DNA of 39,138 bases from contig JAJDBD010000027.1 in the NCBI GenBank assembly GCA_029261575.1, forward strand, positions 1 through 39,138, written 5' to 3'. The notes under the pieces are model-generated. The model saw only the letters and a program-made list of their open reading frames with translations. It was not told where the DNA came from and searched no databases. Of the stretch, positions 18,072 to 27,506 are shown piece after piece. Origin of the DNA: Nitrospinaceae bacterium (lineage in GTDB: Bacteria; Nitrospinota; Nitrospinia; Nitrospinales; JACRGP01). The translations under genes and the position numbers were made by a program. The first letter of the stretch is position 1; every line of letters begins with the position of its first letter.

Positions 18072-18132
18072 TTGCGGGCAATGACTGCATTTGATTTATA
18101 ATAAATCCAATAATAATTCCAATTTTTGGATT
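18072..18132 (+). promoter_or_regulatory. Promoter and inverted-repeat operator of the HicAB pair
   Basis: A perfect TATAAT -10 (18097-18102) is preceded by a weak TTGCGG -35 (18072-18077, 19-base spacing). Just downstream lies the inverted repeat AATCCAA (18104-18110) / TTGGATT (18126-18132), ending next to the hicA ATG. Toxin-antitoxin pairs usually autoregulate by antitoxin binding to such a site. The operator role is inference. Confidence 0.5.
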
Positions 18133-18133
18133 G

Positions 18134-18334
18134 ATGAAATTCAGCGAACTTGTCCGGGTTTTACAGAAAAATGGATTTCAATTGATCAAGGAAAAAGGTT
18201 CCATCCGGTATTATGGCAAGGAACATTGCGACAAACTCATCCGGCTGGATTATCACGGCGCCAAAGAGGTTCCAAAAGGAACCTGTAGCGCTATTCTGAA
18301 AGCGGCAAGAATTAAGGGGAAAACCAATGATTGA
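18134..18334 (+). CDS. hicA: HicA-like toxin (YcfA/HicA family)
   Basis: A 66-residue HicA-fold protein, a double-stranded-RNA-binding-like mRNA interferase that blocks translation. Visible family features are KFSELVRVLQKNGFQLIKEK at the N-terminus and KEVPKGTCSAILKAA at the C-terminus. The usual GSH(H) active-site block reads GSIRYY here, so the expected catalytic histidine near residue 24 is Ile. The only histidines lie later (KEHC and DYHG). It may use a different residue, belong to a divergent subfamily, or be inactive. The ATG at 18134 is preferred over the TTG directly before it. Its end overlaps hicB by 8 bases, typical of the hicA-hicB order. Confidence 0.85.
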   Translation: MKFSELVRVLQKNGFQLIKEKGSIRYYGKEHCDKLIRLDYHGAKEVPKGTCSAILKAARIKGKTND

Positions 18335-18569
18335 TCTGGAGTATTCTTTGGTAATAGAGGCGACGGAAGACCCCTCGTTTTTCGGATTTTTTTCCCCGGA
18401 GCTGGAAGGATTTTCGGGAACCGGTTCTTCGGTTGAAGATTGCCTTTACAAGGCGACGCATGGAATGAAAGAACACCTGGCGTTGTTGGAGGAAAAAAAC
18501 CTGCCGCATCCGCCGAAAAATCCCAACCCAAAAATAACCATCCAGAACGAAGAAAAAGCGCGGGTTTAA
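18327..18569 (+). CDS. hicB: HicB-like antitoxin
   Basis: An 80-residue partner of the preceding toxin. It has the HicB partial RNase H-like fold: a YSLVIEATEDPSFFGFFSPE strand region, then GTGSSVEDCLYKATHGMKEH, followed by a Pro-rich tail. HicB neutralises HicA and often represses the operon. No clear C-terminal DNA-binding (HTH or RHH) domain is visible, so repression may need the complex. The 8-base overlap with hicA indicates translational coupling. Confidence 0.85.
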   Translation: MIDLEYSLVIEATEDPSFFGFFSPELEGFSGTGSSVEDCLYKATHGMKEHLALLEEKNLPHPPKNPNPKITIQNEEKARV

Positions 18570-18646: not shown

Positions 18647-21600
18647 TTACGTCGACTCGGCGGATAGCTTTGCTTTGCACCGGTCCAGCAATTTTTGCGC
18701 GTCGCGGTAGCCGTCGTCCGCGCGCAAAATCTTTTCAAGATAGGGCTTGGCTTTCTCGTAGCGCAGGGTCTTCATATAAACCTCCGCCAGAATGTACTGG
18801 ATATGCAACTCGTCCGGATTCAATATCCCGTACCGTCGGCCGTAGTCGAATACCTCGCGCGCGTCCCCCAGTCCCCGGTAGCTGAACACGATGCTTTGCA
18901 GGGCGCGCAGGTCCAGCGGATTGTTCTCAAACGCCCGCAGGGAATACTCCAGCGACTTGCCGTAATCGTTTTTCACGTTGTAAATTTGCGCCGCCGCGTT
19001 GATCAAATTCTGACTGCCCGGATTTTTTTCCAACTCGTTCAATAAGCCGATCAAGCCAAACTCCTGCATGACGCCGCTCATGTGGCCGGGATTCAGCTTC
19101 ACCGCCGCCTGGAATGATTCCTTCGCCTCCTCCCGCCTGCCGAGTTCCATCAGATCGTAAGCGCGGTAAAGAAGTCCCAGGTCCTGCCTGGGATTTTTGG
19201 CCAGGGCGCGGTCGAGGTAATCCAGACTGCGCTCGTATTGACCCAGTTGAAAATAAGCGTGGCCGAGGTTGAGCAGGGCTTCCACGTTTTCGGAATCCTC
19301 CTCCAACTGGTCCAGCAACGCCTGTATCTGTCCTTCCCCTGCCTGGAGGTGGTAACGGAGCAAACTGTCGTCGTCCACCAGGCGCGCGGCCTCCAGCAAC
19401 TGCCGCCGGTTGCCGTACATCACGCCCCGTTGGTACAGGTCCATGGCTCGGTAATAATCGTCCAGCCGCTTGCGGTCTTCCGCCGACATGTTGGAAATGC
19501 GCGGTGCCAACTCGTCCATGGAAACGCGGCTGAACACCAGCTCTTCCATTTCCGAAGACCCGATCACGTTCGGCAGGTCCAGATAAAACTCGATGTAAGG
19601 CCGGTTGTCGGTGATGATCTTTCGTCCCGTCGCATGTTTGCGCAACTGCTCCTCGACAAACCAGACGTTGCCCAGCAGGGAATAGACGTTTTCGATCTGG
19701 ATATCTTTCATAAATTTCGCGACGACCGGGTCAGCCATTCGGCGCTTCAATTTGTCCATGTCGATCTCAATCGGTTCGTCCGACCCGATGATCAATATTT
19801 CGTTGGCCACCGAAAGCCAGGCCATGGCGTGCGGAAACGCCGAAAGGAACGTGCGAAAATGCATTTCCACTTCCTTCATGCTTTGGCTGTGGAGCGGAAC
19901 CCATTGCGCGAAAATCCCTCCCGGCTTCAAACGCTTTTGGGCGGCGGCGTAATAGTCGCGCGTGTACAGGTTGACGGTGAAGGCGGTGCGCGGCGGCGGC
20001 GGCTCGCCGGTGATCACGTCGTAGGTTCGGGAAGTGGTCAGCAGGTGGTTGCGCCCGTCCTGCAAAATGTAATTCACCTTCGGATTGTTCAAAACGTCGT
20101 GGTTTTCCGCCGCAAAAACCTTTCCCGCGCGCACCACGCCTGCGGACAAGTCGACCGCGTCCACCCGCTGAACGCCGGGGTGCATGGCCGCTGCGCCCGT
20201 GGTCTGCCCGGTCCCGAAACAGATCACGAGAACGTCCTTCGGATTGTCCGTTAAAAGGATGGGCACATGGGCGAACAGTTTCATATAGCGCGTCGCCGTT
20301 TTGTTGGAGGCCGACATGGAAATTCCGTTGGTGATCAGGCGTTTGGCCGTGGGGTCCAGCGGACCGTAGTTGTCCTGGAACACCGCGACCGTGTCCGTCA
20401 ATCCCTCCTCGAAATACAGGAGTTGTTTCGGATTGCGCTTTCCGGCGCTGTCGCGCATGAAAAAGGAATCCAGCAAATCCGCCGGCAAGGCGACAACGAC
20501 GGCGACGGCGAGAACTGCCAGCGCCGCGCCCAATCCCTTGCGAACGCCGGGGCGCAGGTATTCGCCAGACGCAAACAGGGAGGCGGCCAGCAGGAAATTA
20601 ATTCCCGCCACGACGGCGAAACCTCGCGCGCTTCCTAAATAGGGCAGGAGAACAAAGCCCGCAACCAGCGATCCAAAAATGCCGCCCAACGTGTTGGCGG
20701 CGTAAATCCGGCCTGTGCCTTGTCCCACTTGTTCGCGTCCCTTGGAAGCCAGCCCCACCAGCAAAGGAAAATTCATGCCCATTAAAATCGCCGGGAACAG
20801 CATCAGCGCCATAGAGTCCTTGAAATAAATTCCAAAGGACCGCAGGGGGTTTTGCAGGTTGTAACTGTTCCACGGCGGCGAGAGCAAAGACTCCATGCCG
20901 TACAGGGAAAAAATTACGTACAGGCCGATCAGGACCTGAATCACGATCAACGCAGTTCGCGGATCGGCGCTCCGTCGGGCCAGCGGCGCCGCCGCCAGAC
21001 CGCCGAGGGCAAGGCCCAATAAAAAAACCGCCAGCATCATGCTGAAGGAATACGCGGTGCTGGAAATGCTGAAGACCAGAAGGCGCGTCCACAGCGTTTC
21101 ATAAGCCAGGGCGGCGAAGCCGACGACGAAGCTCGTCGCCATCCAGATTTGCCACCCCGAGACCGAACTCCTTTGCGGAAAAGAAAGCCGGGGCCAGTAA
21201 AACCATTTGGACGACTCGCCCGTGGCCTCCTGATAAATCCGGATCGCCCCGGCTCCGGCGAATAGATTGATCAACGTCGCGTACAGCGCCGTCTGCAAAA
21301 CGCCGAAAATGGAGATCAGAAAAAATCCCGTCAGTAAACAGCCCGCCGCCGCGCCGAGAGTGTTGACGAAATAAAGCAGGCCGAGCTGGCTCCCCACCTT
21401 GGCGTCGTCGGTCACGTAATATTTGCCGATGATGGGAAGCGTGGCGCCCATCAGGCCGGCGGGGACGACCATGAGACAAAAGGCCAATGCCGCCTTGAGC
21501 GCGGCGTCCAGAATCGGCCAGTCCGGCAGGCCCAGATGTATCATGGAATAGACCGTCGAAAATTTCGACAGGATCAGGGAGACCCCCGCGCAGACGACGA

Positions 21601-21871
21601 AAATCAAAACCTCGATCGACCCGTAAATCAAAAGCGCGCGCTGGGAGCCTTGCTCCGCGTTGTCCGAAGCGTCGACGACCTTGTCGATGATATGGCCGAA
21701 CACATAACTCCCCAGCCCCAACCCGGCCATGAACGCCGCCAACACCACGGAAACCGAATACACCGTGTGTCCGAACGTCAGCGTGAGCATCCGGGTCCAG
21801 ACGATCTCGTACACCAGGGCGGCGGCGCCCGAGATAAAAAACAGGAAATAGGCTATGGGGGATCGAGTCAT
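18647..21871 (-). CDS. Polytopic membrane protein fused to a spermidine-synthase-like domain and TPRs
   Basis: This 1074-residue protein has three parts. Residues 1-470 hold about a dozen membrane segments in two similar halves (compare GAAALVYEIVWTRMLTLTFG with AALAYETLWTRLLVFSIS). Residues about 480-760 form a spermidine-synthase-like Rossmann domain with VLVICFGTGQTTGAAA and VDAVDLSAGVVRAGKVF. Residues about 830-1070 carry TPR repeats. In true spermidine synthases the catalytic block is YDVIxxDxxDP. Here it is YDVITGEPPPP (617-627), so the catalytic aspartate is missing and polyamine synthesis is doubtful. Such fused proteins are widespread and their function is mostly unknown. The gene is divergent from the PCP_red gene. 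Confidence 0.85.
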   Translation of the reverse strand: MTRSPIAYFLFFISGAAALVYEIVWTRMLTLTFGHTVYSVSVVLAAFMAGLGLGSYVFGHIIDKVVDASDNAEQGSQRALLIYGSIEVLIFVVCAGVSLILSKFSTVYSMIHLGLPDWPILDAALKAALAFCLMVVPAGLMGATLPIIGKYYVTDDAKVGSQLGLLYFVNTLGAAAGCLLTGFFLISIFGVLQTALYATLINLFAGAGAIRIYQEATGESSKWFYWPRLSFPQRSSVSGWQIWMATSFVVGFAALAYETLWTRLLVFSISSTAYSFSMMLAVFLLGLALGGLAAAPLARRSADPRTALIVIQVLIGLYVIFSLYGMESLLSPPWNSYNLQNPLRSFGIYFKDSMALMLFPAILMGMNFPLLVGLASKGREQVGQGTGRIYAANTLGGIFGSLVAGFVLLPYLGSARGFAVVAGINFLLAASLFASGEYLRPGVRKGLGAALAVLAVAVVVALPADLLDSFFMRDSAGKRNPKQLLYFEEGLTDTVAVFQDNYGPLDPTAKRLITNGISMSASNKTATRYMKLFAHVPILLTDNPKDVLVICFGTGQTTGAAAMHPGVQRVDAVDLSAGVVRAGKVFAAENHDVLNNPKVNYILQDGRNHLLTTSRTYDVITGEPPPPRTAFTVNLYTRDYYAAAQKRLKPGGIFAQWVPLHSQSMKEVEMHFRTFLSAFPHAMAWLSVANEILIIGSDEPIEIDMDKLKRRMADPVVAKFMKDIQIENVYSLLGNVWFVEEQLRKHATGRKIITDNRPYIEFYLDLPNVIGSSEMEELVFSRVSMDELAPRISNMSAEDRKRLDDYYRAMDLYQRGVMYGNRRQLLEAARLVDDDSLLRYHLQAGEGQIQALLDQLEEDSENVEALLNLGHAYFQLGQYERSLDYLDRALAKNPRQDLGLLYRAYDLMELGRREEAKESFQAAVKLNPGHMSGVMQEFGLIGLLNELEKNPGSQNLINAAAQIYNVKNDYGKSLEYSLRAFENNPLDLRALQSIVFSYRGLGDAREVFDYGRRYGILNPDELHIQYILAEVYMKTLRYEKAKPYLEKILRADDGYRDAQKLLDRCKAKLSAEST

Positions 21872-22010: not shown

Positions 22011-22844
22011 ATGTCGGCAGGAACAGATATTAACGGAGAACTCATCGACCATCCCTACGCCGAGGAAAACAGCGTGGAATGGACGGCGGAAGCCTGGGAA
22101 CGCGTGAAGCACGCGCCGGAGTTTGTGCGCCCCGGCATCCGCAAGCTCATGGTGCAACGCGCGCTCAAACGCGGTTTCAAGTTCATCGCTTCGGATTTTT
22201 TAACCGATATCCGCAACGAGTCGATGATGCTGGTCTCCAAGCGCGTGCGTCAATTCGGATTCGAAGAGCTTTCCATGGGCGCCTTCGACGAAGCCAAGAA
22301 AAAAATGTCCCAGTCGCCGCGCAAGATTGAAGTGATCGAAGAGATCGAGGATTTTCTGGGCCAACGCACGGAGAAGAAAGAGGACATCGTCGACAAGTTT
22401 AAAAATTACATGGAAGTGGCCCCCACCATGGGCATGCCGTGGAACAAGGAAGCCCTGGCCAAGATGGAAAAGGTGCCGGCCTTTGTGCGCGGCATGGCGA
22501 AGCAGACCATCGAGGCCCGCGCCCGTGAACGCGGCGACAAGATGGTGACCGCCGACGGCATCGAGGAAGTGTTCACCAACATCATGCCCGCCTCGGCCAA
22601 GGCCGCCATGGGCATGGAAGTCACCGAGGAAGATCAACAACGCGACGTCGATTACGAAAAGCAAAAAGAGGAACGCCCGGAATTTGGCATGGACTGGGGA
22701 GAAGACGCCGTGCAAAAAGTCATGCGCATTCCGATTCCTTTCATCCGCAACATGGCAATCAAACGCATCGAGGAACAGGTCGTTAAGGAAGGCGAGGAAA
22801 AAGTGACGATGGAGTTGTTCGACAAATACCGGTTCACCTTTTAA
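22011..22844 (+). CDS. Protein with three PCP_red-like domains
   Basis: A soluble 277-residue protein made of three copies of a ~50-residue module. The copies lie at about 24-73 (WTAEAWERVKHAPEFVRPGI), 143-192 (WNKEALAKMEKVPAFVRGMA) and 228-275 (WGEDAVQKVMRIPIPFIRNM). The pattern W-x2-EA-x6-P-x-FVR, then a helix and a short Thr/Asp-Ala turn, matches the PCP_red domain. That domain is found at the C-terminus of light-independent protochlorophyllide reductase subunit B and as small stand-alone proteins in non-phototrophs. No catalytic or cofactor residues are evident, and no chlorophyll or nitrogenase-like genes are nearby. The function is unknown. AGGAAAT precedes the ATG. A 42-residue membrane protein gene follows after 35 bases. 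Confidence 0.8.
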   Translation: MSAGTDINGELIDHPYAEENSVEWTAEAWERVKHAPEFVRPGIRKLMVQRALKRGFKFIASDFLTDIRNESMMLVSKRVRQFGFEELSMGAFDEAKKKMSQSPRKIEVIEEIEDFLGQRTEKKEDIVDKFKNYMEVAPTMGMPWNKEALAKMEKVPAFVRGMAKQTIEARARERGDKMVTADGIEEVFTNIMPASAKAAMGMEVTEEDQQRDVDYEKQKEERPEFGMDWGEDAVQKVMRIPIPFIRNMAIKRIEEQVVKEGEEKVTMELFDKYRFTF

Positions 22845-22879
22845 CCTCTTTTAGACTTTTTTAGATCAGGAGAATTTTT

Positions 22880-23008
22880 ATGACGCCCCCCAACTGGATC
22901 GACCTGGCCATTGGACTCGGCCTGCTAGGCTCGCTGGCCTGGCAATTTCTTCCCAGGAAACAACCCGCCGCCGCGAAATCCAAAGACGCGCGCAAGAAAT
23001 CCCGCTAG
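22880..23008 (+). CDS. Small single-span membrane protein downstream of the PCP_red gene
   Basis: A 42-residue frame starting at ATG 22880 with CAGGAGA 7-8 bases upstream, an excellent ribosome-binding site. The product has one hydrophobic segment (WIDLAIGLGLLGSLAWQFL, about residues 6-24) followed by a basic tail rich in Lys, Arg and Ala. Positive-inside topology predicts the tail in the cytoplasm. Position, ribosome-binding site and strand suggest cotranscription with the PCP_red gene. I recognise no family. Confidence 0.65.
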   Translation: MTPPNWIDLAIGLGLLGSLAWQFLPRKQPAAAKSKDARKKSR

Positions 23009-23093: not shown

Positions 23094-23843
23094 TTACAAC
23101 CCGGTGGGGTAGTCGATGAATTCGGTTTCGACGCCGAACTGTTCCGCCAGGCGCTTGCCCACCGCCTTCACGCCGCCGGTTTCCGTGGCGTAGTGTCCCG
23201 CAAGGATCAGGACGCATCCCCCTTCAATCGCCGCATGGTAAAATGGGTGCGCCGCCTCGCCGGTGACGTAGCAGTCCAGCCGCTCGGCCACCGCTTGATG
23301 CAATATCTCCCCGGCGCCTCCGGTGACCATTCCGACGGTTTCCACTTCGCCTTCGCCGATCACGCGGACCGGCGACCCGAGTTTTTCCTCCAGCGCCTTG
23401 CCGAATTCCCCGGCTGAAATTTTTAAAACCCGGCCCTTTAAGCCGATTTTGATTCCGTTGTATTCTCCGAAAGCTTCCAGATGCTCCAGGCCCGCCTGAT
23501 CCGCCAGCGCGCGGTTGTTGCCCAGCACGGGATGCATGTCCAGCGGAAGGTGGGCGGAGTACAGGCCCAGGTTGGCGCGCATCATGGCCGAAAGTTTTTC
23601 GTAAAGCAGGCCGCGAACGGGTTGGAGTCCGTCCCAGAACATGCCGTGATGCACAAACAGCATGTTGCATCCGCTTGCCGCCGCCCGGTCGATGGTGGCC
23701 TGGCACAGGTCCACCGCCAGCCCGACTTTTTGGATCTCGCCCCGGTTTTGCACCTGCAAACCGTTCACCGCCGTTTTGGCGTCCGGAATGAAATCGATAT
23801 CCAGAAGCTGATCGAGATAATTACTGAGTTGTAAAATGTCCAT
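23094..23843 (-). CDS. NIF3-like dinuclear metal centre protein
   Basis: 249 residues from the ATG at 23843. This start is preferred over upstream residues because MDILQLSNYLDQLL is the normal family N-terminus. Metal ligands typical of the NIF3/YbgI family are present: VHHGMFW (His 65, His 66), HLPLDMH (His 98, Asp 102) and GHYATE (His 217, Glu 221). These hexameric toroidal proteins bind two metal ions and may act as GTP cyclohydrolase I type 2-like or other hydrolases; the physiological role is unsettled. It is convergent with the small membrane gene and divergent from the Calx-beta gene. Confidence 0.92.
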   Translation of the reverse strand: MDILQLSNYLDQLLDIDFIPDAKTAVNGLQVQNRGEIQKVGLAVDLCQATIDRAAASGCNMLFVHHGMFWDGLQPVRGLLYEKLSAMMRANLGLYSAHLPLDMHPVLGNNRALADQAGLEHLEAFGEYNGIKIGLKGRVLKISAGEFGKALEEKLGSPVRVIGEGEVETVGMVTGGAGEILHQAVAERLDCYVTGEAAHPFYHAAIEGGCVLILAGHYATETGGVKAVGKRLAEQFGVETEFIDYPTGL

Positions 23844-23945
23844 GCCCGAAAGTATACCCCCGGACCGCGGACAAGACAAACTCCGGGGAGGCGTTTGGCC
23901 GCTTCACACTGCCATTGACAAGGTTCCACTTTTCCTTGAACCTGT

Positions 23946-26900
23946 TTGTATAACTCTTTTTTGCTGGTCTTCCGTAAATTCCCCAGTGAAACCACTTTTT
24001 GGTTTAAGTTGATCTTGCCCAAAGCCCTCAAATTCCCATCGCTTTTATTGATCGCCTGGGTCGTTTCCGCAACGACCCTGTTAATGGCCTCGTTCGCCCA
24101 TTCGGCGACGGCGCCTACGGTCAACTTCGACGTCGCAACAGCCAACGGCGCCGAGAGCGTCTCGCCCGCTTCGGTCGCGGTTTCCATTGTCCTGGGGGGC
24201 GACCCGACGCTGCCTCCCTACATCGTCGATTACACGGTGACGGGGACCGCGACGGGCGGGGGAACGGATTTTACCCTGGCGGACGGTACGCTGGCGTTCC
24301 TCACCGGCGAAACTTCCAAAACGTTGAACATCAATATCGTCGACGACGCCCTCATTGAAAGCGCGGAAACCATTATTGTGACGCTGTCGGTCAACAGCAA
24401 CATCATCATCGGGTCGACTTCGACGCACACTTACACCATCAACGACAACGATCCGCTGATCGCATTCGACGGCGGCGCGCCCTCCAGCGGCGCGGAAGGC
24501 GACGGCACGGTGAACATCCCGGTTACCCTGACGCCGACGAACAACACGGGAGCCGCCATCACCGTGGATTACGCCGTCAACCTCGGGTCCAGCACGGCGA
24601 CTGGCGGCGGGTCGGATTACACGCTTGCGAACGGAACGCTGACCTTCAACAACGGGGAGACCACAAAAAACATTGCCCTGGCGATTGTCGACGACTTGCC
24701 GGACGAAGGGGCGGAAACGGTGGTGATCGATTTATCGAATCCTTCGCGGGGAACGCTCGGCGCGCCGGTCTCGCACACCTTCACCATCAACGATAACGAT
24801 CCGCAAATTTCCTTCGACGCGGCCACGTCCAACGGCGACGAGGGAACCACTCCGGCGTCCATTCCCGTTTCCCTCAGCGCGGCGCTCAACGGGTCGAATG
24901 TTACCGTGGACTTTCAGGTCACCGGGGGAACGGCGACGGGGAGCGGAACGGATTTCACCCTGGCGAGCGGCACGCTGGCGTTCACCGACGGCGGGGCGTC
25001 CACTCTAAATATTAATATCGACGTCGTCGACGATACGAGGGACGAGGTCAACGAAACCATCAACCTGCAAATTTTAAATCCCGCCTTCGGCGCAACTTTA
25101 GGAAGCCAGACCACGCACACCTATACGATCAACGACAACGATCTGGGTCCGCTGGTGGAATTCGACCAGTCGTTTTCCAAAACGCCGGACAGCGTGGGAA
25201 CGTTTAGCGTTCCGGTTTCCCTGGCCGAGGCGTCGGATTTTCTGGGTTCGGTGCATTATTCCGTCTCGGGCGGAACGGCGACAGGCGGCGGCACGGACTA
25301 CACTCTGGCGGACGGGACCTTGACCTTCACCGCCGGCCAAACCACCAAAAATATCGACGTGACCATTACCAACGACGCCGACGCCGAAGATGAAACGGTG
25401 GTGTTGATCCTCAGCACGCCGAGTTACCCGACTGCGGGGTTGGGCAGGAAAATTTATCACACCCTCACCATCCAAGGGGACAGTCCCACTGTATCCACTC
25501 CGAAAAAATATCTTGTGTTCCAGGTCTTCACTTCGGCGCCCAATATCACCACGGGAATTCTGGGAGGACCCGTCACGACTCTTGCGCTTAAAACCCTGAT
25601 GGAAACCACTCTGGACAAGCTCATCGCCAAACTGGGCTACGGGGGGGACGTCGATACCACCGCGCCCACGCTCGGGTTCTCCATAGGACCCCTGGCGCAT
25701 GATCAAACCGACCAACTGATCAACGACACCATCGACGCGGCGTTCGATACCGCCATTTTAAAAGACATGGCGGTGGTGTTTCACCTTCACGATTTTCTGT
25801 TCTGGAAAGACGCAGACGATAACGGCGACGGCACGGGGAACAAATTCGTGGCCGACCTTGCCAACACCGAGAACAAGGATTTTGCAGGGACGGAAAGCGC
25901 TTCCCTGGATATCGACTATTTAAAGTCCGGGGGCGTCGCGCCGCCGCTGGCCCCGCAAATGTGCTACGAAAGCCCGGCCATTAAAACGGAATCCCTGCGC
26001 CTGGCCAAGGACGTTATTGGCGCAAAAATCAAAACCCGATTCGACGCGTTGGCGGCAAATAAAAAACACCTGTTCGGCGGCGTGATTGTGGGTTGGGAAT
26101 CCAACCTCACCGACGGATTTTGTTCCCTGGGCCTGCGCGGGTTCAGCGCGACCGTCCCGCCGGTGGATTTCGACATAGAGCGGGAGCGCATCGTTTACGA
26201 ATACATCCAGCTTTGGACCAAGGGCGTGTTTGACGCCGGAATCACCCGCGACAAAATTTACACCCACATCGGTCCCATCCCGAAAAAACAGTTCGACGAT
26301 TTAAAACTTCTGAACACCACCGCACAGATTCGCGCCATGACCAGTTCGACGGTGTTCCGCGCGTTCTGGGTAGCGTTCAATCAGTTTTCCAATCCGGGTT
26401 TTAGCACGTATCCCGCAGGCGACGTCTTCAACGACGTCAATACCGAGATTCAAAACTTTGGGGACGTCCCCTGGGCCTCGGCGGAGGGAACCAATGTAGA
26501 ACTGAGCACTATTGGTATGGCAGGTATCGACACGATCAATTGGGAAACTTATTTGGGCAAGTTGTTCAACAAAGGCGCCACGCTTGTGAACATTTTTGGG
26601 TTCGATCAGGGCGCCGGGGAATTCACCACGCAAACCGAGAGCGCCGAGGCCGTCGCCGCATATAATAAATTCCTCGCGGGGGGGACCCTGGTGGAGACGC
26701 CGATCACCGTCAAGACGGGACCCACCGGGACGCCCAATCCCGTCGATCCCGGAAGCGTCGTTACTTTGAGCCTGACGGTCAACAACCTCCTGAACGAGAC
26801 GCCGGTTTACGCCTGGTCCGCCAGTTGCCCCGGTTTGGGAAGTAGTGGAACCTTCAGCAACGCGGCGGCGCAAAATCCCACCTGGACCGCTCCGCCCAAT

Positions 26901-27506
26901 GCCACCCCGTCGTTGAGAGCCTGCACCTTGCAAGTGGACGTCTCGAACGGATCAGGGCCGCTTCAAACCGGAACGGATAGCGTGATCGTGAATACGGACA
27001 ACCCCAGCGTTGTGGTCGAAGTTCCCAAGGTAGCGTCTCCCTATTGGCAGGCCGAGAGCGGGATATATACCTTCGTCGCGGTGAGCCATCCTTCGCTTTC
27101 CGGCATGAACTCGCAAATCGGTTTGAGGATGACGGCCTTGAACAAGGATGGATCCCTGCAAGCGACGCTGGCGTTTACGATTTTGTCGGGGAGCACGCAG
27201 AAGGTGTTCATCACGACCACAAACTTTTTCTTCAACTCGGTCACCAACCCGGACGACCTGTTTTTGATCACGGATTCCACCGTGGAGCGGGCGGGACGGC
27301 TGGGGTTCATCGACGTCGCGAGCGACCCGTTGACCCGGCTGGGCGGCGCGGGAATTCCCGGCGGCGGGTTTCCGGATATTCGCAGTTTGAGTTTCTGGGG
27401 AGCGATTGTGATCGTAAATTCGTCGACCGGCTTTGCGATGGAATTTATCGGCGACATGCAGGACAGCCGCGCTTTCAGTTCCGAAAATTTCTCCGGCGTA
27501 AATTAA
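23946..27506 (+). CDS. Secreted Calx-beta repeat protein with an unassigned central domain
   Basis: This 1186-codon frame has no ATG near its start. TTG codons at 23946, 24009 or 24015 are possible, none with a good ribosome-binding site. A signal peptide is clear (SLLLIAWVVSATTLLMASFA, then a likely AHSA-type cleavage site). Four Calx-beta modules follow to about residue 517, each with a GTATGGGTDFTLADGTL-like core and two ending in YTINDND. These bind calcium in other proteins. Residues about 518-910 form a globular domain with VVFHLHDFLFWKDADDNGDG, GGVIVGWESNLTDG and WASAEGTN, somewhat like glycoside-hydrolase barrels, but I cannot assign a family. An Ig/PKD-like domain (about 915-1015) and a C-terminal domain rich in beta strands follow. 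It is probably extracellular or on the outer surface; no anchor or sorting motif is seen. Confidence 0.8.
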   Translation: MYNSFLLVFRKFPSETTFWFKLILPKALKFPSLLLIAWVVSATTLLMASFAHSATAPTVNFDVATANGAESVSPASVAVSIVLGGDPTLPPYIVDYTVTGTATGGGTDFTLADGTLAFLTGETSKTLNINIVDDALIESAETIIVTLSVNSNIIIGSTSTHTYTINDNDPLIAFDGGAPSSGAEGDGTVNIPVTLTPTNNTGAAITVDYAVNLGSSTATGGGSDYTLANGTLTFNNGETTKNIALAIVDDLPDEGAETVVIDLSNPSRGTLGAPVSHTFTINDNDPQISFDAATSNGDEGTTPASIPVSLSAALNGSNVTVDFQVTGGTATGSGTDFTLASGTLAFTDGGASTLNINIDVVDDTRDEVNETINLQILNPAFGATLGSQTTHTYTINDNDLGPLVEFDQSFSKTPDSVGTFSVPVSLAEASDFLGSVHYSVSGGTATGGGTDYTLADGTLTFTAGQTTKNIDVTITNDADAEDETVVLILSTPSYPTAGLGRKIYHTLTIQGDSPTVSTPKKYLVFQVFTSAPNITTGILGGPVTTLALKTLMETTLDKLIAKLGYGGDVDTTAPTLGFSIGPLAHDQTDQLINDTIDAAFDTAILKDMAVVFHLHDFLFWKDADDNGDGTGNKFVADLANTENKDFAGTESASLDIDYLKSGGVAPPLAPQMCYESPAIKTESLRLAKDVIGAKIKTRFDALAANKKHLFGGVIVGWESNLTDGFCSLGLRGFSATVPPVDFDIERERIVYEYIQLWTKGVFDAGITRDKIYTHIGPIPKKQFDDLKLLNTTAQIRAMTSSTVFRAFWVAFNQFSNPGFSTYPAGDVFNDVNTEIQNFGDVPWASAEGTNVELSTIGMAGIDTINWETYLGKLFNKGATLVNIFGFDQGAGEFTTQTESAEAVAAYNKFLAGGTLVETPITVKTGPTGTPNPVDPGSVVTLSLTVNNLLNETPVYAWSASCPGLGSSGTFSNAAAQNPTWTAPPNATPSLRACTLQVDVSNGSGPLQTGTDSVIVNTDNPSVVVEVPKVASPYWQAESGIYTFVAVSHPSLSGMNSQIGLRMTALNKDGSLQATLAFTILSGSTQKVFITTTNFFFNSVTNPDDLFLITDSTVERAGRLGFIDVASDPLTRLGGAGIPGGGFPDIRSLSFWGAIVIVNSSTGFAMEFIGDMQDSRAFSSENFSGVN

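Follow-up and report, generated by a model that had tools for sequence, protein, structure and literature searches.

The PCP_red domain (Pfam PF08369) is named after one chlorophyll enzyme, and its NMR structures are those of the C-terminal domain of a BchB (2KRU) and of the Nostoc protein Asr4154 (2L09). In these solved cases, a single domain is either carried by a big enzyme or makes up one short protein. BchB handles a tetrapyrrole and works with a NifH-like partner, BchL, and two families of radical SAM enzymes relevant to what follows, NirJ2 and AhbD, belong to heme d1 or heme b synthesis. In spite of its name, PCP_red occurs in nearly every genome examined of the Nitrospinales, an order not known to be phototrophic. 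The main marine nitrite oxidisers, organisms that rely on cytochromes, belong to the phylum Nitrospinota. Literature on PCP_red/PF08369, PCP reductase and Nitrospina protochlorophyllide reductase provided no description of proteins like those presented here, and chlorite dismutase, heme biosynthesis and radical SAM are all absent from the genome paper of Nitrospina gracilis (PMC3578206).

The window, i.e., the whole stretch of DNA analysed, is 39,138 nt long and comes from a Nitrospinaceae bacterium (contig JAJDBD010000027.1). It encodes a 277 aa protein (22011..22844, forward strand) that is kept across Nitrospinales and matches PF08369 in three stretches (97.9 bits, E 3.3e-28), with no other domain found by Pfam in the 277 residues. 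Module 1 (22080..22208; 29.7 bits, E 2.4e-6) falls slightly under the gathering cut-off of 32.5 bits and has an unbroken WxxEA..P.FvR pattern; module 2, the strongest (22440..22568; 56.9 bits, E 7.7e-15), and module 3 (22695..22826; 33.6 bits, E 1.5e-7) each exceed the cut-off on their own, and all three lie on the forward strand. Alignments show that the linker joining modules 1 and 2 (approximately 22221..22430, same strand) is nearly invariant (IRNESMMLVSKRV..FGFEELSMGAFDEAK..). The triple protein is acidic, with a pI of about 5.2 (5.0–6.3 in six copies checked). Its modules are like the solved examples in sequence and fold, but it differs from them in having three modules in tandem, a near-invariant linker and an attached membrane gene.

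The AF2 model of module 2 (residues 137–200) has a pLDDT of 83, and Foldseek matched it to both 2kru and 2l09 with a probability of 1.00 (E 0.002–0.003). The model agrees with 2KRU to 1.7 Å over 53 columns and with 2L09 to 0.9 Å over 47 columns. The mean pLDDT of the full-length AF2 model is only 60, probably because the 12 alignment rows were too similar, and reliance is placed on the module 2 model only. The PCP_red modules share no invariant His, Cys or Met, which argues against simple heme ligation by the modules and for protein docking; with no invariant ligand residue, heme ligation was rejected.

A second gene (22880..23008, forward strand) begins 35 bases past the stop codon of the triple gene and encodes a membrane protein of 42 aa. 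A ribosome-binding site, AGGAGA (22868..22873, forward strand), lies 7 bases ahead of its ATG. The protein has a short acidic or neutral N-end, a single span at residues 9–25 and a tail with a charge of +7, and its predicted topology is N-out, C-in, since the basic tail follows the span and would be cytoplasmic by the positive-inside rule. The same distribution of charge is seen in all 25 of the small proteins compared, with a net N-end charge of 0 to −2 and a tail of +4 to +8. No Pfam or NCBIfam match to the 42 aa protein was found up to E 0.1, and a promoter/terminator scan gave nothing convincing. Both the three modules and the single-span protein with its good ribosome-binding site had been recognised in the initial annotation, and the coordinates and frames given there are exact.

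Across Nitrospinales, the small ORFs are 38–47 aa long and usually start 10–35 bases past the triple-gene stop. A matching small ORF, defined as 36–50 aa with one span, a basic tail and an ATG within 45 nt, was present downstream of 23 of 40 real homologues compared to 4 of 12,000 dinucleotide shuffles. The window copy of the small gene has 15 synonymous and four non-synonymous differences from that of the nearest relative (pN/pS 0.09), other pairs give pN/pS values of 0.25–0.66, and the gene is evolving under purifying selection. Most of the ORFs in the small-protein profile and in the conservation list were chosen by eye on these same features, so the fair tests are those with held-out genomes and with shuffles. 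A chance ORF was rejected by the profile hits, the pN/pS values and the shuffles.

Close relatives all come from Nitrospinota MAGs. Identity of the triple protein to the window copy is 74–95% in 11 relatives across the order, and the family is present in 65 of 77 Nitrospinota genomes (E ≤ 1e-20). Counterparts from the class's other families run to about 185–205 aa, with modules 1 and 2 and the linker kept and the third module missing; module 3 is found in Nitrospinales and in one genome of another phylum (G123). No relatives were found on viral contigs. The 3′ end of the triple gene is available from 54 Nitrospinales genomes, and the small protein adjoins it in 34 of them, representing all four families and 13 of the 15 genera. 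When a profile of 25 small proteins was run against the six frames of the 77 genomes it produced 36 hits, 34 of them beside the triple gene and the remaining two weak (E about 0.003). The genomes G011, G037, G041, G043, G048, G050, G051, G055 and G063, nine of the paired 34, did not contribute to the profile. The small protein is missing in the other 20 of the 54 genomes, and so is not essential to the array; in G045 and G046, another ORF lies 3′ of the triple gene instead. The pair is a real, conserved and previously undescribed two-gene unit built on a known domain. The initial annotation had regarded it as a candidate undescribed small system, to be refuted if the small frame were not conserved downstream of PCP_red homologues; the pair withstood this check. 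At two loci without the small protein (L014 and L018), an acidic ORF of at least 159 aa (MSDDEITDES...) starts about 20 bases past the triple-gene stop.

The whole window contains no chlorophyll, nitrogenase or heme-synthesis gene, and at the Nitrospinales loci read, the window's included, no heme or Ccm gene adjoined the pair. The earlier remark that no tetrapyrrole genes lie nearby holds within the window but is misleading: in relatives, fusions and neighbourhoods provide a strong link. Eight PCP_red matches, spread over four loci, were counted in the window genome, and near-complete genomes of the order usually have eight or nine. One locus (L020:5025-6363, contig C20), near multihaem cytochrome genes, has an Mrp/NUBPL ATPase gene and, immediately downstream, one for a 145 aa PCP_red protein that is zinc-ribbon-like (ZnR-PCP_red), two genes that were adjacent wherever both fell inside the stretch examined. 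Another (L021:160-2112, contig C87) specifies a Usp-Usp-3xPCP_red protein, which is of similar length in most Nitrospinales. At a third (L022:6364-7323, contig C79), PCP_red is fused to a protein of the HemQ/chlorite dismutase (Cld) family, a putative coproheme decarboxylase (HemQ/ChdC); its best solved relatives are coproheme decarboxylases, and it retains the YP..WYLL motif and the downstream His. This fusion, encoded in the same genome as the pair and at a different locus, may be the heme synthase of Nitrospinota, and ferrochelatase is present in the window genome and in 58 of the 77 genomes of the phylum. A radical SAM/SPASM-PCP_red protein occurs in 7 of 10 Nitrospinales genomes checked, with 81–84% identity between families. 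Its best NCBIfam hits are TIGR04055 (NirJ2) and TIGR04545 (AhbD), both below cut-off. It was not found in either genome of the window's genus, the window genome and its sister species (MAGs, both about 85% complete), so that this partner may be absent here. At one further locus (L126:2195-3625, minus strand), three PCP_red modules are fused to a domain that, judged by eye, looks heme-oxygenase-like (PqqC/TenA type).

Modules 1 and 2 with their linker (the core) are also found in other families and in other phyla, fused forms included. The matches in other phyla span residues 18–200 of the triple protein, and outside Nitrospinota strong matches to the core are rare. In the phylum of genome G138, the core is present in 21 of 24 genomes and has the length of a fused form (a frame of about 470–670 aa) in about 20 of the 24, a count that refers to frame lengths of 472–668 aa, with a Pfam check on one and the sequences of G138, G279 and G312 read. 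The fusions that were read run from radical SAM through SPASM and PCP_red to the core, which forms their C-terminal part. The core of Nitrospinales differs from these NirJ2/AhbD-like fusions in being free-standing and in having a third module and a membrane partner, and Pfam detects no radical SAM or SPASM domain in the window protein. A Usp-PCP_red gene lies directly ahead of the radical SAM-core fusion in most of those read, G138 and G279 included. The same arrangement, a Usp-PCP_red gene and then a radical SAM/SPASM protein ending in the core, was seen at L139:1269-4296 and L140:8508-11602, both outside Nitrospinota. Genes for Mrp, ZnR-PCP_red and the radical SAM-core fusion are all within 8 kb in G138 and G312, about 0.7 kb separates the triple gene of G123 from those for ZnR-PCP_red and Mrp, and in G001 the gene run that contains the core also has one for an ArsA-type ATPase.

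In four genomes from other families of the class, namely G001, G072, G074 and G075, the gene immediately 5′ of the core codes for a membrane protein with four spans that matches nothing in Pfam (L087:3227-3700, L088:4184-4612, L089:4629-4991 and L090:4424-4909). In G075, the core and this four-span protein adjoin ccmE, ccmF and ccmH, a CcdA-type gene is nearby in G074, and in G302 the Usp and radical SAM-core genes come after ccmH and a DUF420 gene; these ccm neighbourhoods come from only a few loci read. A c-type cytochrome gene is found immediately before the core in G173 and G313. Taken with the four-span proteins and the ccm genes, this indicates that membrane or cytochrome partners recur in varied forms among relatives.

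From what was observed of the modules and their fold, of the conservation of the pair, and of fusions and gene neighbourhoods, we tentatively prefer, at less than even confidence, to view the pair as a docking scaffold that is tethered to the membrane and takes part in the maturation of heme or cytochrome c, with heme, and not chlorophyll, as what it helps to make or supply. The 277 aa protein would be a cytoplasmic tandem array of PCP_red docking modules, and the 42 aa protein would cross the inner membrane once, its basic tail holding the acidic array at the membrane. We infer that the array docks other PCP_red proteins, most likely gathering enzymes that bear the same module, which in Nitrospinota would be the coproheme-decarboxylase-like protein, the NirJ2/AhbD-like radical SAM enzyme, Usp and the zinc-ribbon protein beside the Mrp-type iron-sulfur ATPase. 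An iron tetrapyrrole, heme or some other, or the iron-sulfur cofactors for it, would then be made or passed on near the cytochrome c maturation machinery. Tethering to the membrane is plausible from the acidic partner, the strongly basic and predicted cytoplasmic tail, and the other membrane partners in related lineages, and electrostatic recruitment of the triple protein by that tail would be a reasonable means. The link of the core to the radical SAM enzyme, made by fusion, is firmer than any link of the core to heme itself, because the substrate of that enzyme is guessed from family hits below cut-off. A broader proposal, which we consider doubtful, is that several bacterial phyla share a tetrapyrrole-maturation assembly in which PCP_red serves generally for docking, the pair being a membrane-anchored hub that gathers HemQ-like, NirJ2/AhbD-like radical SAM, Usp and Mrp ATPase proteins into an undescribed heme-handling metabolon. 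If stand-alone arrays were tied to heme synthesis and to a membrane partner, the PCP_red domain would gain a general meaning, a near-invariant protein of major marine nitrite oxidisers would be explained, and one more small membrane protein would be added to the real genes of under 50 residues.

The main rival to this scaffold, possible though rather unlikely, is that PCP_red docks MinD/NifH-type P-loop ATPases (Mrp, BchL, ArsA) delivering electrons or iron-sulfur clusters, and that the pair is the membrane-side partner of such an ATPase instead of a heme scaffold. Much of the evidence is common to the two. The partnership of BchB with BchL, the constant adjacency of ZnR-PCP_red and Mrp/NUBPL, the closeness of both to the triple gene of G123 and to the fusions of G138 and G312, and the ArsA-type ATPase of G001 all agree with ATPase docking, but such an ATPase is not next to the triple gene either in the window or at the other Nitrospinales loci read, and the HemQ and Usp fusions would be left unexplained. 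ATPase docking could also be the biochemical basis of the same assembly. We think it unlikely that the small protein is an unrelated membrane peptide on a shared transcript, with the triple protein acting alone in the cytoplasm. This would fit with its loss from 20 of 54 genomes, while the triple protein is nearly invariant, and with the different ORF of G045 and G046; however, the small protein occurs essentially only beside the triple gene, usually 10–35 bases past its stop, its charge pattern is constant, and relatives of the core neighbour other membrane proteins.

The remaining explanations are weaker. The array might belong to a stress or dormancy regulator with Usp as nucleotide-sensing partners, since the window genome encodes the Usp-Usp-3xPCP_red protein and Usp-PCP_red directly precedes the radical SAM-core fusion in G138 and G279, but the Usp partner there accompanies a radical SAM enzyme, more in keeping with an enzymatic pathway, and nothing ties the pair to regulation; we regard this as improbable. 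After 2KRU and 2L09, the module 2 model gives a weaker match to part of the AAA+ proteins RuvBL1/2 (TM about 0.7), presumably the AAA+ lid, and the whole-protein model weakly resembles histones, so the pair could be imagined to hold a nucleoid protein, or nucleic acid itself, at the membrane. This is very improbable for an acidic protein, given that the E-values of these matches are weak (0.02 and above) and that PCP_red is found in metabolic enzymes. The Pfam and NCBIfam names by themselves would suggest a subunit or remnant of protochlorophyllide reductase, to which we give almost no credence: the window protein has the C-terminal PCP_red domain of BchB/ChlB in common with that enzyme but lacks its nitrogenase-like catalytic domain, and the NCBIfam BchB/ChlB hits are far below cut-off (70.4 bits vs 509 needed for NF002789; 52.4 vs 490 for TIGR01278) and are confined to the C-terminal region of the model. 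As the catalytic domain of nitrogenase component 1 type is missing, a protochlorophyllide reductase function was ruled out.

The pair is flanked by a divergent gene for a fused MFS/spermidine synthase with TPRs (18647..21871, reverse strand), kept in 9 of 11 relatives, and a convergent DUF34/NIF3 gene (23094..23879, reverse strand), which is at the locus in 9 of the 11. The wider surroundings consist of flagellar genes, tRNA synthetases and a glycosyltransferase cluster. Two other features of the window were noted. At 18131-18569, a HicA toxin identified by Pfam is followed by an overlapping, HicB-like frame of 80 aa without a Pfam match, a probable toxin-antitoxin pair. At 23946-27506, a TTG-started frame encodes a protein of 1186 aa, in which Calx-beta occurs in four stretches and the long C-terminal part is unassigned.
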